From Oscillospiraceae bacterium (GTDB taxonomy: Bacteria > Bacillota > Clostridia > Oscillospirales > Oscillospiraceae), in the NCBI GenBank assembly GCA_017561205.1, contig JAFZDL010000110.1, positions 1-42,055 on the forward strand: a stretch of 42,055 bases of DNA, in the 5' to 3' direction. This document shows positions 21,143-27,411 of the stretch, in pieces. Position 1 is the first letter of the stretch; every line of letters starts with the position of its first letter. The position numbers and the translations under genes were made by a program. The notes below the pieces were generated by a model. The model saw nothing but the letters and a program-made list of their open reading frames with translations. It was not told the origin of the DNA and ran no database searches.

Positions 21143-24100
21143 TTATTCCACAATTCCCAGGTACTCTTCCATCTGGTTTAGATCCAGGCGCAGCAGCTTA
21201 CTGATACCCTGCTCCTGCATGGTCACACCGTACAGCACATCAGAAGCTTCCATGGTACCACGGCGGTGAGTGATGACGATAAACTGGGTCTTGGTGCTAA
21301 GATTCCGCAGATAAGAGGAGAAGCGCTCCACGTTCCGGTCGTCCAAAGCTGCGTCGATCTCGTCAAGCATACAGAAGGGCGTGGGCCGCACCTTCAAAAT
21401 AGCAAAGTACAGGGCAATTGCCACGAAGGCCTTCTCGCCACCGGACAGCAGTGTGATGGTCTTGACCTGCTTTCCGGGAGGCTGCACACGAATTTCAATG
21501 CCGCAAGTCAAGGGATTTTCCGGGTCCTCCAGCAGAAGCTGGCCCTTACCGCCCTGGAACATCTCTTCAAAGACCTTACCGAAGTACTCATTGATCTTTG
21601 CAAACTCCGTAACGAAGATCTCCGTCATTTGCTGGGTGATTTCCTTGATGATGCCCTCTAAGTCCTTCTTGGCGCTGAGCACATCATCCCGTTGAGCGGT
21701 TAGGTAGGTATACCGCTCGTTGACACGGGCAAACTCTTCGATGGCGCCCAGGTTTGGCGTACCCAAGGAAGAAATCTTCCGCTTTAGCTCGGCGATCCGA
21801 CGAGAAGCTGCTGCCACGGATTCGATCTCGGCTTTCTTTTCCACAGCAGTGCCGGGGGTCAAACCATAGGTATCCCACAGCTTATCCACGGTGTTCCGCT
21901 CCTCAATAAGGGCGGTTTCTTTCTTATTTTCAAGCAATGCGCAAGCCCGCTCCATATTGAGAATGGACTTGTTCTTCTCCTGGATATCGCCCTCGGTCTT
22001 GGACTTTTCTGCCTCTATGCGGGCATACTCACCCTGGGCATCCTTCATGCCCTGGCGGACTCTGGCGATCTCTGCAGCATTTTCTTCCTGGCGCTTGAAC
22101 TGGCGCTGGATTTCCTCCTGCAGGCGGACATTTTCCGCTGCAATGGCATCGATATCAGACAGCTTTCTGCTCTTATCTCCCTCTGCGGCAGCTTGCAGTA
22201 CCCGCAGGTCAGCGATGTGGGCATTGGCAGTAGTACGCTCTGCCTCCAATGCGGCCGAATCGGTACGCAGGGCATTCATCTGATCGGTAATTACAGAAGT
22301 TGCCTTATCCGCCTCGGACTGAGTTCCTTCCAAAGCGCTGATCTGCTGACGAGTTTGGTGTAGTTGCTCGGTGAATACGCCCACCTGAGCCCGGATAGCA
22401 GCCAGCTGCTCACGATCGGCAGCATCACGCTTTTCCAGATTTTCCAGTTCGCGGGCAGCGGCATCCTTGGCATCGCAGATAGCCTGCAGCCAGGTTTCCC
22501 GCTGGCGGACATAACCCTCCTGGGTCAGCACCTGCTTTTCGGCCTCCTGGAGCTGCTCCCGGGCGGTATTCATCTGGAACTCCACCTGGTCAGCAGCGCG
22601 GCGGGCCTCCTGGAACTCCGTTTCCAAAGTTTCCAGCTTAGCGGACAATTCCTTTTCCCGGGCTGTCAGTTTGTCCAATTCGTTGGCACGGCTCAAGATG
22701 CCGGCCTCTCTATTCACAGAACCGCCGGTCATAGAACCGCCGGGGTTCACCACCTGGCCGTCCAGGGTAACGATCTTAAAACGATTACCATACTGCTTTG
22801 CCATAGCAATGGCAGCATCAATATCTTCAACGATCACAATACGGCCCAACAGGTCTTCCATCAGGTTTTCATATCGTTTTTCAAACTTGATAAGCTTGGA
22901 TGCAATGCCCACATAGCCCCGGCATTTCTCAAGACCCGTTTCCTTCAACACTCTGCCACGAATGGAAGACAATGGCCAGAAGGTAGTACGGCCGCCGTTT
23001 GTGCGCTTTAAGTAGGCAATGGCCGCTTTGGCGTCCTGCTCGGAATCCACAACGATCTGCTGCATAGCGCCACCCAAGGCGATCTCAACAGCCACGGTGT
23101 ACTGATCCTCGGCACGGATTAGCTGAGAGATAGGGCCGTGGATATGACCCAGAGAGCCGCCCTTGGCCGCCTGCATCACCTGGCGGACGGACTTTTGATA
23201 GCCCTCAAAATCCTGCTCCATCGCCCGGAACGCACGAGCCTTGGCTGAAACCTCGTCCAACTGGTTTCGTAGCTTCTGCACCTGCTCAGCCAGTTCGTCA
23301 CGGCGCTTTACGCGAGTGGTCTGACGAAGGGTATAGCCGGCAATGGCATTTTGGTTTGCAGTAACTTCTTCCTGGGCCTTTTTCAGTTCCTTTTGGCAAG
23401 CAGCCATCTGCTCCCGGGCATCCTGCTCCTTGGCCTCACCGGATTGCAGGTCTGCGCGAAGCTCCTCCGCTCTTGCAGTGCTGCCGGCCATATTGGCCTC
23501 CAGCGCCTTTTCATCTGCTTCTCGGGCAGCTAAGTCGGCAGTCAGATTCACTTCACGGGTACGCAGTTCCATAAACTGCCGGGTGAGGCCCTGGGCATCG
23601 GCGGTCATAGCCATCAGCTGCTTTTGCAGCACTTCCAACTCAGCCGCCTTTTGGGCTACGATCGTATCAATCTCAGCAACACGGGCTGTGGCCTGCTCCA
23701 TCTGGACTGTCAAACCGCTACTGCGGTCCTCCTGACCCTGCAAATCTTCCTTACTACGGGCAATGGTTTCTTCGTTATGCTTAACAGTACTTTCCAGAAC
23801 GGCAATCTGTCCTTCGATCTGCTGATGGGTACCCTCCAACAAGGAGACCTGGTCACGAAGGGTATCCACAGCGCCGTTCTGATGGCGCAACTGGGCGCCC
23901 ATCTGCTCGGCAGACAGGTACATCTTTTCCAAATCATCGTGAGCCTGCTGCAGCACAAAGGAAGCAGAAGTATAGTCCTCCTCTGCCTTCTTGGCCTCGG
24001 CAGAAAGCTTGTCCAGCTTATCCAGCCACACAGCAACCTCAATACCCTGCAATTCGTCACGCAGCTCCAAATACTTGGTTGCCTTCTCGGACTGCACGCG

Positions 24101-24715
24101 CAAAGGCTCCAACTGCAGCTCCAGTTCGGAAACCTTGTCGCCAATACGCATCAGATTATCTTCCGTATGGGCTAATTTCCGCTCGGTCTCTTCTTTGCGG
24201 TGGCGGTACTTGGAAATACCGGCAGCCTCTTCAAAAATCTCACGGCGGTCAGCACTCTTGAGCGACAAAATTTCGTCAATTCTGCCCTGGCCGATATTGG
24301 AATAGCCCTCTTTACCCAGGCCGGTGTCCATAAACATCTCATTAATGTCACGAAGACGGGCAGATTGGCGGTTGATATAGTATTCACTGTCGCCGCTGCG
24401 ATAATACCGGCGGGTGATCATAACCTCGTCGGAATCGTAGGGCAGCGCGCGGTCGGAATTGTCCAGAATCAAGGTTGCCTCGGCAAAGCCAACAGCCGCT
24501 CTTTTCTGCGTGCCGCCGAAGATCACATCCTCCATTTTTGCGCCACGGAGAGTCTTGGAGCTTTGCTCGCCCATAACCCACAAAATGGCATCGGAAATAT
24601 TGGATTTACCGGAGCCGTTGGGGCCAACGATGGCAGTAATATCGTCGCCGAAGCGGATCAGTGTTTTATCGGGGAAGGACTTAAAGCCCTGCACCTCCAA
24701 AGATTTCAAATACAT
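21143..24715 (-). CDS. smc: Chromosome segregation protein SMC
   Basis: SMC is the ATPase of the bacterial condensin that organises and separates chromosomes. The 1190-residue protein has Walker A IVGPNGSGKSN near residue 32, long coiled coils, a hinge around 500-680 (GSMTGGSVNREAG), then the C-terminal signature LLSGGEKAFVAIAL and Walker B CMLDEIDAALDD. Length is normal. It begins the operon smc, ftsY, rdgB, yhbY, nadD-yqeK, rsfS, leuS. The common upstream neighbour rnc is not here. Confidence 0.98.
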   Translation of the reverse strand: MYLKSLEVQGFKSFPDKTLIRFGDDITAIVGPNGSGKSNISDAILWVMGEQSSKTLRGAKMEDVIFGGTQKRAAVGFAEATLILDNSDRALPYDSDEVMITRRYYRSGDSEYYINRQSARLRDINEMFMDTGLGKEGYSNIGQGRIDEILSLKSADRREIFEEAAGISKYRHRKEETERKLAHTEDNLMRIGDKVSELELQLEPLRVQSEKATKYLELRDELQGIEVAVWLDKLDKLSAEAKKAEEDYTSASFVLQQAHDDLEKMYLSAEQMGAQLRHQNGAVDTLRDQVSLLEGTHQQIEGQIAVLESTVKHNEETIARSKEDLQGQEDRSSGLTVQMEQATARVAEIDTIVAQKAAELEVLQKQLMAMTADAQGLTRQFMELRTREVNLTADLAAREADEKALEANMAGSTARAEELRADLQSGEAKEQDAREQMAACQKELKKAQEEVTANQNAIAGYTLRQTTRVKRRDELAEQVQKLRNQLDEVSAKARAFRAMEQDFEGYQKSVRQVMQAAKGGSLGHIHGPISQLIRAEDQYTVAVEIALGGAMQQIVVDSEQDAKAAIAYLKRTNGGRTTFWPLSSIRGRVLKETGLEKCRGYVGIASKLIKFEKRYENLMEDLLGRIVIVEDIDAAIAMAKQYGNRFKIVTLDGQVVNPGGSMTGGSVNREAGILSRANELDKLTAREKELSAKLETLETEFQEARRAADQVEFQMNTAREQLQEAEKQVLTQEGYVRQRETWLQAICDAKDAAARELENLEKRDAADREQLAAIRAQVGVFTEQLHQTRQQISALEGTQSEADKATSVITDQMNALRTDSAALEAERTTANAHIADLRVLQAAAEGDKSRKLSDIDAIAAENVRLQEEIQRQFKRQEENAAEIARVRQGMKDAQGEYARIEAEKSKTEGDIQEKNKSILNMERACALLENKKETALIEERNTVDKLWDTYGLTPGTAVEKKAEIESVAAASRRIAELKRKISSLGTPNLGAIEEFARVNERYTYLTAQRDDVLSAKKDLEGIIKEITQQMTEIFVTEFAKINEYFGKVFEEMFQGGKGQLLLEDPENPLTCGIEIRVQPPGKQVKTITLLSGGEKAFVAIALYFAILKVRPTPFCMLDEIDAALDDRNVERFSSYLRNLSTKTQFIVITHRRGTMEASDVLYGVTMQEQGISKLLRLDLNQMEEYLGIVE

Positions 24716-24913: not shown

Positions 24914-26305
24914 ATGGAAAAGAGAAAGAGTTTCTACGTCAGTCCAAAAAACGGATTGACCTGGCTGGTAGTCCTTTGCATGGTCTGCTCGGCAGTGGCC
25001 CGCGTTTTGTTCGGTGAGAAAGGCATCGATGTGTGGAGCCAAATCGTTCTGCCAATCGCAGCAGTCCTGCTTTATGGGGCAATCTGCCTGTTCAGCGGCA
25101 AGGAGCGGTTCTATAAGACCGCTATCCCCTTCTGGATGATTTGCATTTATTACAGTTTCGTCTTTACCGGGTACAATTTCGGCGACTATGACAAGATGAT
25201 TGATGTACTGTACGCCATCGCTATGTTCTTCATCGCTGTTATATACACCCAGGTAACCTGCGGCAAAATCCCCGCAAGCTCGCTAATTATATTGCTGGCT
25301 TTAGCGCCCTTTGGCGCTCTTCTGTACCTGGAGCGGGACAATTGGCAGAATCCTGCCCTGTTGGCTGATGCTTTGCTGACTTTGGGGCTGGTGCTGGTCG
25401 TATTTGCCCTGCGTGTGCATCCTGCCGGTGAATACCATCCCACCTGGGGCGACCGTATCGACGGCCGTCGAATTCGCACAGAGCCTCCTATCAATCAAAT
25501 CGGACCTTACCTGATGTGGACTCGTTGCGCCTCTATGAATCTATTCGCTGATGCCATTGAGATCAGCAATGCCGAGCGCTACATCCGGCAAAAGCGCCGG
25601 GAGGGTTTGACTTCTTTCGGTATGATGCATGTGATGTTGGCTGCCTACTGCCGCGCACTGTGCAAGTACCCCGGTATTAACCGTTTTATCTCCGGTCAAA
25701 AGCTCTATACCCACGGCAACGACATTCAGTTCTGCCTGACCGTAAAGAAGGATATGACCACCAGCTCCCCCGATACTGTTATCAAAGTACACTTGACCCC
25801 CACCGACACCCCTGAGGATGTTTACAACAAGATCAACAAAGAAGTAGAAAATGTCAAGAATACGCCTTTGGATTCCAATCTTGACAACACCGCCAACCTG
25901 CTGACCATGATTCCCGGTGTATTTCTAAAATTCGTTGTTTGGCTGTTGCGGGTGTTGGATTATTTCGGACTGCTCCCCAAGTTCCTGTTGGAAGTAAGTC
26001 CCTTCCACGGAAGTGTGTTCTTCACCTCTATGGGTAGCTTAGGTATTCCTCCCATCTTCCATCATCTGTACGATTTCGGTAATCTGCCCGTATTCGTATC
26101 TTTCGGCTGTAAGCGCCGGGCTTTGGAAGTGCAGGAAGACGGCTCTGTTGTGCAACGGAAATATGTGGATATTAAGATCTCCACCGACGAAAGAACCGTG
26201 GATGGTTTCTACTACGCCACCTTCTTCAAGCACTACAAGCATTTGCTCCTCCGTCCGGAAATCCTGGAAACGCCTGTGGAAGAAGTTAAGCAGGATGTTG
26301 ACTAA
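24914..26305 (+). CDS. Six-helix membrane protein fused to an E2/CAT-like acyltransferase domain with altered active site
   Basis: Residues 1-170 hold about six hydrophobic helices (near 14-33, 42-62, 70-90, 96-115, 120-140 and 148-167). Residues 180-463 resemble the catalytic domain of 2-oxoacid dehydrogenase E2 or chloramphenicol acetyltransferase: TSFGMMHVMLAAYCRALCKYPGINRFI, VFFTSMGSLGIPPI, and the C-terminal STDERTVDGFYYATFFKHYK. In E2 enzymes that last motif is DHRxxDG, with His as the catalytic base. Here Glu426 replaces the His, while Asp430 and Gly431 remain. No lipoyl or E1-binding domain is present. It may be a membrane acyltransferase using other chemistry, or a non-catalytic binding protein. 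birA follows after 3 bp. Confidence 0.8.
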   Translation: MEKRKSFYVSPKNGLTWLVVLCMVCSAVARVLFGEKGIDVWSQIVLPIAAVLLYGAICLFSGKERFYKTAIPFWMICIYYSFVFTGYNFGDYDKMIDVLYAIAMFFIAVIYTQVTCGKIPASSLIILLALAPFGALLYLERDNWQNPALLADALLTLGLVLVVFALRVHPAGEYHPTWGDRIDGRRIRTEPPINQIGPYLMWTRCASMNLFADAIEISNAERYIRQKRREGLTSFGMMHVMLAAYCRALCKYPGINRFISGQKLYTHGNDIQFCLTVKKDMTTSSPDTVIKVHLTPTDTPEDVYNKINKEVENVKNTPLDSNLDNTANLLTMIPGVFLKFVVWLLRVLDYFGLLPKFLLEVSPFHGSVFFTSMGSLGIPPIFHHLYDFGNLPVFVSFGCKRRALEVQEDGSVVQRKYVDIKISTDERTVDGFYYATFFKHYKHLLLRPEILETPVEEVKQDVD

Positions 26306-26308
26306 ATT

Positions 26309-27106
26309 ATGAAAGAACAAATTTTATCTCAATTTACTACAGAGTGTCCCTGGCGGGACACTCTGTATTGGTATGATACCATCGATTCCACCAACACCCG
26401 GGCGAAAGCCCTTGCCAAAGAAGGTGCTCCTGCGGGAACTGTATTGATCGCAGGCAACCAAACCGGTGGTCGGGGGCGCTTAGGGCGCAGTTTTTCCTCC
26501 CCTGCCGGAATGGGTGTATATCTGTCCGTGATACTCCGTCCCGGTTGTAAAGGGAATCAGCTTATGCATTTGACCTGTGCTACCGCTGTTGCCGCCTGCG
26601 AAGCTGCAGAAAAAGCAAGTGGTATCGTTCCTGGCATAAAATGGATCAACGATTTGGTTTGCGGAAAAGAAAAGTTAGGCGGCATCCTAACGGAAATGTC
26701 TGTAAACAGTGACGGTTTTGTGGATTGGGCAGTTGTGGGCATCGGCATAAATTGCTGTCAAAAAAAGACAGATTTTCCAACCGAATTGCAAAACATGGCC
26801 ACTTCCCTGCTCTTACAGACCGGAAAAGCCTGTCATCCTGCCCTGTTGGCCGCTTGTCTAACCGAATCTCTTTACGAAATGGATAAGATTCTTCTATCGC
26901 AAAAACAGCAGCTTATGGACATCTATCGCCGCCATTGCGTGACCCTTGGAAAACAAATTCTCATGGTGCGGGGCGAAGAATCCGCCTACGGAGAAGCCTT
27001 GGATTTGGACGAGGACGGCGGACTGCTGGTTCGTTTCTCAGACGGAACGGAAAAGGTTGTCAGTTCCGGGGAAGTCAGCATCCGGGGTATGTATGGATAT
27101 GTATAA
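26309..27106 (+). CDS. birA: Biotin-[acetyl-CoA carboxylase] ligase BirA (no DNA-binding domain)
   Basis: BirA attaches biotin to the carboxyl carrier protein. The 265-residue protein has DSTNTRAKALA, the biotin-AMP loop GGRGRLGRSFSSPAGMGVYLS, KWINDLVCGKEKLGGIL and the C-terminal SH3-like cap (LLVRFSDGTEKVVSSGEVSIRG). The N-terminal HTH of the E. coli repressor form is missing, so it is enzyme only. It lies 3 bp after the E2-like gene with no strong ribosome site, so translation is probably coupled. Confidence 0.94.
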   Translation: MKEQILSQFTTECPWRDTLYWYDTIDSTNTRAKALAKEGAPAGTVLIAGNQTGGRGRLGRSFSSPAGMGVYLSVILRPGCKGNQLMHLTCATAVAACEAAEKASGIVPGIKWINDLVCGKEKLGGILTEMSVNSDGFVDWAVVGIGINCCQKKTDFPTELQNMATSLLLQTGKACHPALLAACLTESLYEMDKILLSQKQQLMDIYRRHCVTLGKQILMVRGEESAYGEALDLDEDGGLLVRFSDGTEKVVSSGEVSIRGMYGYV

Positions 27107-27142: not shown

Positions 27143-27192
27143 ATCCTTAGAGAACACACCCTGAAACATATCTTTTATGGGAGGTTATGATT

Positions 27193-27411
27193 ATGAAAGC
27201 ATTTAACAAAATTCTGAAGGTTTTCCTGGCTTTGGCCGCTGTTGCCGGCATCATTTATACCATCGCTGCTTACGGCGAACGGATCGTTGCTTGGGCAAGA
27301 AATCTTCTGGAAACTCTGCGAGCTAAGATTGATTACTGTTACAACGATGATGAGGATTTCGATGAGGAATTCTGTGACGATGTAACCGACGAGGAAGATT
27401 TCGAGGCTTAA
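27193..27411 (+). CDS. Small membrane-anchored protein with acidic tail
   Basis: The 72-residue protein MKAFNKILKVFLALAAVAGI... has one hydrophobic helix (about 8-27). A short amphipathic stretch follows, then a highly acidic tail rich in Asp and Glu (NDDEDFDEEFCDDVTDEEDF). GGGAGG lies 8 nt before the ATG at 27193; an ATG two codons earlier is too close. It has its own promoter and terminator. I do not know its function. The layout recalls small Clostridia proteins with an inner-membrane helix and cytoplasmic charged tail. Confidence 0.75.
   Translation: MKAFNKILKVFLALAAVAGIIYTIAAYGERIVAWARNLLETLRAKIDYCYNDDEDFDEEFCDDVTDEEDFEA

Follow-up and report, generated by a model that had tools for sequence, protein, structure and literature searches.

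The window, by which we mean the whole analysed stretch of 42,055 nucleotides from an Oscillospiraceae bacterium (contig JAFZDL010000110.1), carries on its forward strand an open reading frame at positions 24914-26305 that starts with ATG and encodes a protein of 463 amino acids. Its N-terminal membrane module (residues 1-173; 24914..25432) probably comprises six helices with both ends inside, as suggested by hydropathy, the distribution of charge in 49 aligned proteins, and stand-alone homologues in nine genomes. The remainder (residues 174-463 and the stop codon; 25433..26305) is assigned to the E2/CAT fold on the basis of PF00198, a profile search of the PDB, and an hhalign comparison with true E2 domains. 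In its motif DERTVDG (residues 425-431; 26186..26206), Glu426 (26189-26191) aligns with the catalytic His of E2. A divergent gene encoding 1190 amino acids, which from its sequence we take to be SMC-type, lies upstream (21143-24715). Downstream, birA (26309..27106, forward strand) starts 3 nt past the stop codon and encodes a biotin--protein ligase of 265 amino acids (PF03099 and PF02237, TIGR00121) that has the ligase and C-terminal domains only and lacks the N-terminal DNA-binding HTH repressor domain. It is followed on the same strand by a gene for a small protein of 74 amino acids that combines a single hydrophobic helix with an acidic tail (27187..27411), whose cluster is found near the E2-like gene in 45 loci of the birA-linked clade described below. 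The original prediction, which had described a membrane module joined to an E2-like fold, Glu426 within DERTVDG, and birA 3 nt further on, is borne out in each of these respects.

A chance origin of the reading frame was rejected because near-full-length matches (query residues 1-4 to 461-463) occur at 53 loci of other genomes, in one of which, L058, the gene is split into two open reading frames, and because dN/dS is low. Compared with two close relatives, dN/dS is 0.065-0.074 for the whole gene, 0.047-0.055 for the E2-like part, 0.118-0.126 for the membrane part, and 0.067-0.091 for birA; the E2-like gene is under strong purifying selection. Local decay of the motif was likewise rejected, given this low dN/dS and the family-wide replacement of the His.

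The membrane module and the birA neighbourhood

Hydropathy places five clear helices in the N-terminal module (residues 15-33, 44-62, 98-116, 119-137, and 148-166) and a weaker one, third in order, at residues 68-88 (mean hydropathy 0.76, with a mean of 0.87 in the 49 aligned proteins). Of the six-helix domain originally proposed, five helices are therefore clear and the sixth is weak, although six is the likely count. The membrane-form alignment, which was used for charge and for conservation of His, represents 48 of the 53 loci, without L056, L058, L063, L078, and L080. Mean numbers of Lys plus Arg in this alignment are 3.69 at the N-terminus, 2.00 in the second loop, 0.90 in the fourth loop, and 5.00 after the last helix, compared with 0.90, 0.65, and 1.61 in the remaining loops. 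This charge mostly fits the positive-inside rule and a cytoplasmic E2-like domain, the short fourth loop being the exception.

The module matches no Pfam family above cut-off; sub-threshold matches were obtained with DUF4401 and TgpA_N for the window module and with Peptidase_U4 for a stand-alone copy. Identity with a PAP2 domain was rejected, as the window protein gives no PAP2 match. Moreover, the PSxH ... H motifs of PAP2 are absent, and the helices contain no invariant or nearly invariant His; H169 and H175, the only ones in the module region, follow the final helix. A search with a module profile found stand-alone modules in nine genomes, all nine of which also carry an E2-like family member; the co-occurrence is weak because such members have a base rate of 108 in 150 genomes. 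One stand-alone module adjoins a PAP2 phosphatase (G094), and those at L264 (5874-6620) and L273 (1207-2343) are followed by repeat-protein-like genes. A weak membrane-module match in genome G049 was unconfirmed by the module profile.

In the close clade of the window gene, a birA-like open reading frame lies directly downstream in 54 of 54 loci, namely the window, one genome of the same genus, and the fetched loci other than the split L058 (52 of 53). Its start ranges from 299 nt before to 9 nt after the stop codon of the E2-like gene; the large overlaps are a product of long ORF calls, and birA is split in two at L045. The original prediction regarded the pairing as no more than suggestive, and what stands of this is a conserved order within one sub-clade. 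Beyond it, none of 17 other membrane-form genes has birA downstream (approx. 1.5 kb searched, less than 250 nt in two cases); in 14 of these 17 genomes birA is on another contig, and three drafts gave none. Furthermore, no E2-like gene was found in G049, a genome of the same genus that is 99% complete, where a homocysteine-methyltransferase-like open reading frame runs directly into birA with a 4-nt overlap. The gene immediately upstream of the E2-like gene in the birA clade is homocysteine-methyltransferase-like in 33 loci, and in five it is smc.

It is conceivable that BirA and the membrane protein form a functional pair in which the latter handles a biotinylated carrier or biotin, and the constant presence of birA in the 54 loci, although the upstream gene varies, speaks for such a link. 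However, the absence of birA from the 17 other loci, the G049 locus with birA and no E2-like gene, and upstream neighbours without an evident link that are also conserved in much of the clade make it very improbable. A partnership in chemistry was rejected in view of the empty site in G049 and of the membrane-form loci that lack birA. Because the upstream neighbours are also conserved in much of the clade, the order is best regarded as a stable operon arrangement and not as a sign of common chemistry, and the adjacency is probably incidental. As far as observed, the downstream gene encodes a normal ligase that stands outside any E2-like chemistry.

Fold assignment and active-site residues

The window protein matches PF00198 at residues 405-449 with 29.1 bits (cut-off 23). 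Pfam reported in it neither a lipoyl nor a peripheral subunit-binding domain, in agreement with the earlier statement that lipoyl and E1-binding domains are missing. A PDB search with the single sequence yielded a best match at E 0.93. A profile was also built from 73 diverse relatives; the 179 distinct members had been reduced to 75 representatives, of which L148 and L160 were left out for their degenerate motif. Its best PDB match was 3mae, an E2 catalytic domain, at E 3e-9, and among the 40 sequences listed with E values up to 1, 38 were E2 or contained an E2-type part. Moreover, PF00198 matches each of the 73 members at an E value of 0.1 or lower. In hhalign, the family aligned with 31 true E2 domains (the best match of each of 30 genomes and the window genome's own, a choice that favours typical E2) with a probability of 98.8, an E value of 1e-16, 215 columns over the domain, and 15% identity. 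Weak from the single sequence, the E2/CAT assignment is firm with the profile, and the original domain call is thereby upheld at the level of sequence profiles. Relative to true E2, the family has an insert of approx. 34 residues holding a hydrophobic helix, which in the window protein is placed at residues 334-352 (25913..25969) by the alignment gap and hydropathy. The insert was rejected as a membrane anchor, since it does not exceed the maximum hydropathy in true E2 domains.

The replacement of the catalytic His is a property of the whole family. Among 85 homologous open reading frames, two of which are the window's own copy, 83 read DER, one reads DDR, and one, the N-terminal fragment L058, has no motif. 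A further set of 72 distinct members, none of them from the birA clade (26 also among the 85; L148 and L160 kept), has Glu at position 426 in 64 cases, Asp in seven, Asn in one, and His in none; D425 and R427 are found in every one of the 72. Thr or Ser at position 371 (70/72), Ser375 (71/72), His383 (70/72), and His384 (71/72) are nearly constant; the single Asn at 426 and both losses of His383 occur in the degenerate copies L148 and L160. Asp430 is present in 62 of the 72 and replaced by Ser, Thr, or Asn in ten, and one clade lacks the Asp of the DG pair. In the 73 diverse members, from which the two degenerate ones had been left out beforehand, the invariant columns are P253, N256, S375, H383, H384, G389, D425, R427, and G431. 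In contrast, all 31 true E2 domains keep DHR in the hhalign comparison. The His change had been tied to the membrane version, a view that does not hold because soluble members share it; and homologues with an intact DHRxxDG, which might have reduced the window gene to a plain variant, were not observed: none of the family members examined has the His. Tandem pairs of E2-like genes that read DDR and not DER occur at L089, L091, and L090/L102, and no ligase cluster lies beside L089-L091.

In the hhalign mapping, Thr371 (26024..26026) corresponds to the Ser of E2 'SNLG', and the pair His383-His384 (26060..26065) corresponds to the 'TP' of E2 'FTPVIN', beside the Phe, a position given by alignment only. 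This Phe presumably lines the lipoamide channel in Azotobacter E2p, and the His pair is a possible replacement base close to the active site. According to the excerpted text of PMC8421416, D-H-R is conserved in all E2 and a salt bridge between its Asp and Arg fixes the His, and S551 of E. coli E2p is said to stabilise the tetrahedral intermediate. With the bridge serving to hold the His in E2, the family therefore retains the two flanking residues and exchanges the one between them.

Resemblance to the catalytic domain of E2 (PF00198) extends to the whole-domain profile match, the D-x-R frame, the oxyanion-site Thr/Ser, and the N of 'PxLN'. Unlike E2, the window family lacks lipoyl and subunit-binding domains, has Glu or Asp in place of the His, and carries the His-His pair and the insert; one clade of this 'DER family' bears a membrane module, and the window gene is adjoined by the divergent smc and by birA, not by E1 or E3 genes. 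The PF00198 match could in itself be explained if the gene encoded a usual E2 subunit of a 2-oxoacid dehydrogenase complex that carries a single substitution. This reading is refuted, and retains next to no probability, because the genome has its own E2 elsewhere and because the family is separated from E2 by a long distance in the tree and shares 15% identity with it. That E2 reads DHRAVDG, has three lipoyl-type repeats (by eye), and stands beside an E3-like gene (also by eye). As a stand-alone domain without a lipoyl arm, the family resembles CAT and the CatA-like O-acetyltransferases (NF033155), and CAT and the E2-like domain presumably belong to the same superfamily. Matches to NF033155 are weak, however, and limited to three of the 73 members (best 5.1e-5), and unlike CAT, the window family lacks the His of HxxxDG and gives no PF00302 match.

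The family profile also matched, at E 0.17, the 6h60 chain, which we take to be the E3-binding protein (protein X) of the pyruvate dehydrogenase complex. The E3-binding protein has an E2 fold that reportedly lacks the catalytic His, carries lipoyl and binding domains, and is built into the core of the complex; the DER family differs from it in being a separate family with conserved residues of its own. A Glu at the His position could also be displayed by a pseudoenzyme, and by analogy with the E3-binding protein of the mammalian complex, the window protein might be a non-catalytic scaffold or sensor, a trimer of the E2 fold that has ceased to be catalytic and serves to bind acyl-CoA or a partner. 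The absence of the catalytic His from every member examined, the absence of lipoyl and subunit-binding domains, and the loss of the second catalytic Asp in one clade are consistent with such a role. In E. coli E2o, the excerpted text of PMC5986005 gives complex activities of 2.1% for His375 changed to Ala, 0.5% for Asn, 1.0% for Cys, 12.6% for Gly, and 59.4% for Trp, and 2.1% activity is left in Asp374Ala. The same excerpts record the authors' doubt that His375 acts in acid-base catalysis and cite, for CAT His195Ala, a 9 x 10^5-fold decrease in kcat. The record on whether loss of the His equals loss of activity is thus mixed: the His is essential in CAT, which favours a scaffold, and some changes of it are tolerated by E2o, which does not. 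Furthermore, conservation in the family is among the highest at the residues aligned to the E2 active site, for which a pure scaffold has no obvious need, and the sister clade has tight operons with a fatty-acyl-CoA-ligase-like gene, as described below. On balance, we regard a non-catalytic role, raised in the original prediction as a non-enzymatic trimer, as somewhat unlikely. Replacement of the catalytic histidine-195 was reportedly the subject of a 1994 paper on CAT.

Sister-clade operons and candidate function

The soluble sister clade with DER(I/L)ADG-type motifs (ADG clade) provides a link to lipid metabolism. Of 40 ADG loci, 27 have a gene resembling long-chain acyl-CoA ligases on the same strand and at most three genes away. 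It lies directly downstream in 21 of them, and many of these ligase genes overlap the E2-like gene by a few nucleotides; in gene slots four to eight genes off, the ligase occurs in 0 of 261. The encoded enzyme is AMP-forming and closest to long-chain-fatty-acid--CoA ligases (NF006181 at 380 bits, under the model cut-off of 705). A PlsC-like gene is found near six of the 40 ADG loci (p 0.012) and a PAP2-like gene near five (p 0.029), both weak enrichments. At L098, a PAP2-like part is fused to the E2-like domain in one protein of 503 amino acids, and at four loci a separate PAP2-like gene lies directly upstream of the E2-like gene; the PAP2 identity of the fused part relies on sub-threshold matches and on its seven homologues, three of which exceed the Pfam cut-off. 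The operon at L239 (4342-8847) contains the E2-like gene, a ligase-like gene, an acyl carrier protein gene (PF00550), and a second ligase gene; the sole other acyl-carrier match is near L258, on the opposite strand. The idea of another acyl carrier, put forward in the original prediction, gains support from these sister-clade operons with a fatty-acyl-CoA-ligase-like gene and, once, also an acyl carrier protein.

The loci in these counts were hand-picked from match lists and are non-random, and the clade is defined by motif and score. Loci L139, L141, L245, and L247, where the E2-like open reading frame has no gene call, are outside the neighbour counts; the DDR tandem pairs L089-L091 and L102-L104 (flanks of approx. 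1.5 kb) are outside the ligase operon counts; and L087 and L098 were dropped from the latter as duplicates of L164 and L163. In the window's own group (soluble group 1 and the membrane form), the ligase was found in one of 48 loci, as a tandem copy beside an ADG member, and in the other loci it was found in none of 36; nor do these 48 and 36 loci contain the PlsC- or PAP2-like gene of the ADG operons. The lipid operon link is limited to the sister clade and does not reach the window's own group.

Other neighbours were also observed. A metallo-beta-lactamase-fold-like hydrolase gene (by eye) is present at -1 or -2, together with the ligase, at L205, L206, L209, L210, and L249. At L087 (the same place as L164) and L088, the E2-like gene lies between a DAG-kinase-like gene and the UppP (BacA) gene. 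In the window's group, a PAP2-GDPD gene is downstream in four loci, and V-type ATPase genes (named by eye) are divergent upstream of soluble group-1 members at 13 loci between L122 and L160.

The explanation that we favour, with a probability of roughly 0.45, is that the window protein is an active acyltransferase at the membrane, dependent on acyl-CoA or acyl carrier protein, in which an acidic residue or the His pair replaces the His. The acyl group would be taken from CoA or an acyl carrier protein, not from a lipoyl arm, and its recipient, on the cytoplasmic side of the membrane, would be a lipid or some other acceptor. The role of the missing His would fall to Glu426 or to one of His383/His384 in the same pocket, the fused six-helix module would hold the domain at the membrane, and the biotin ligase would be a stable operon neighbour outside the chemistry. 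Our confidence is held at this level because the chemistry is carried over from the sister clade and from general knowledge of E2 and CAT. The confinement of the lipid operons to the sister clade, the essential His of CAT, the near-inactive His375Asn and His375Cys forms of E2o, and the clade without the Asp of the DG pair argue against an active acyltransferase.

A rather improbable alternative is that the protein catalyses another reaction, as a thioesterase, as a transferase dependent on acyl-AMP or acyl-phosphate, or as a metal-dependent hydrolase that uses His383, His384, Glu426, and Asp430. The unusual conserved His, His, and Glu/Asp, which by alignment lie near the active site, and the ligase gene close by in sister-clade operons are compatible with such a reaction, but the family shares with acyltransferases the oxyanion-site Thr/Ser and the Asp-x-Arg frame, and a metal site is weakened by the inconstancy of Asp430 (62/72). 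If the protein is indeed an active acyltransferase, nature would have answered, for a whole family, the question of whether the CAT/E2 fold requires its His, which in CAT and E2o has been approached only through substitution mutants, and an unrecognised acyltransferase would be added to the lipid metabolism of gut Clostridia.

Distribution and history of the family

Family members are common in the relatives of the window genome. A match was found in 108 of 150 genomes of its taxonomic family, in 80 of 147 genomes of its order, and in 16 of 398 genomes of a phylum sample, the window's included; three of these 16 matches are very weak, and one of the three is a true E2. The fused membrane form occurs in at least 19 of the 150 genomes, again including the window's own. 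What can be taken as solid is that the fold has a uniform branch which lacks the catalytic His and is common in the window's order. The window protein carries all features of the DER family, namely D-(E/D)-R, T/S371, H383-H384, the insert, and the absence of a lipoyl domain. None of the papers listed in searches of open-access literature was recognised as a description of this family, and the excerpts of PMC11064477 and PMC11985408 concern other subjects; it is apparently an undescribed, distinct bacterial branch of the E2 fold.

A tree of 138 rows (136 family members and two E2 as outgroup), built by a quick method, unites the fused forms in one group surrounded by soluble relatives (29 rows, SH-aLRT 91). 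The birA-linked forms make up a subgroup of it (12 rows, support 100), in which the birA clade is represented by 11 of its 54 rows and the window. Most relatives examined are soluble, and the membrane form arose among soluble ones. The simplest history suggested by the tree is one fusion, followed by one birA arrangement. More tentatively, it is possible that a branch in gut Clostridia exchanged the His for an acidic residue and a His-His pair and moved from lipoyl chemistry to the acylation of membrane lipids with acyl-CoA or acyl-ACP, and that the window protein would be its membrane-integrated form.

Whole-genome searches covered the window's phylum. A plasmid collection from any phylum gave one match, on a Vescimonas replicon, and a phage collection gave two unannotated 'Bacteriophage sp.' contigs. 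The family member on a 'Bacteriophage sp.' contig from human faeces (MT836678.1, 5079-5888) shows 33.7% identity.
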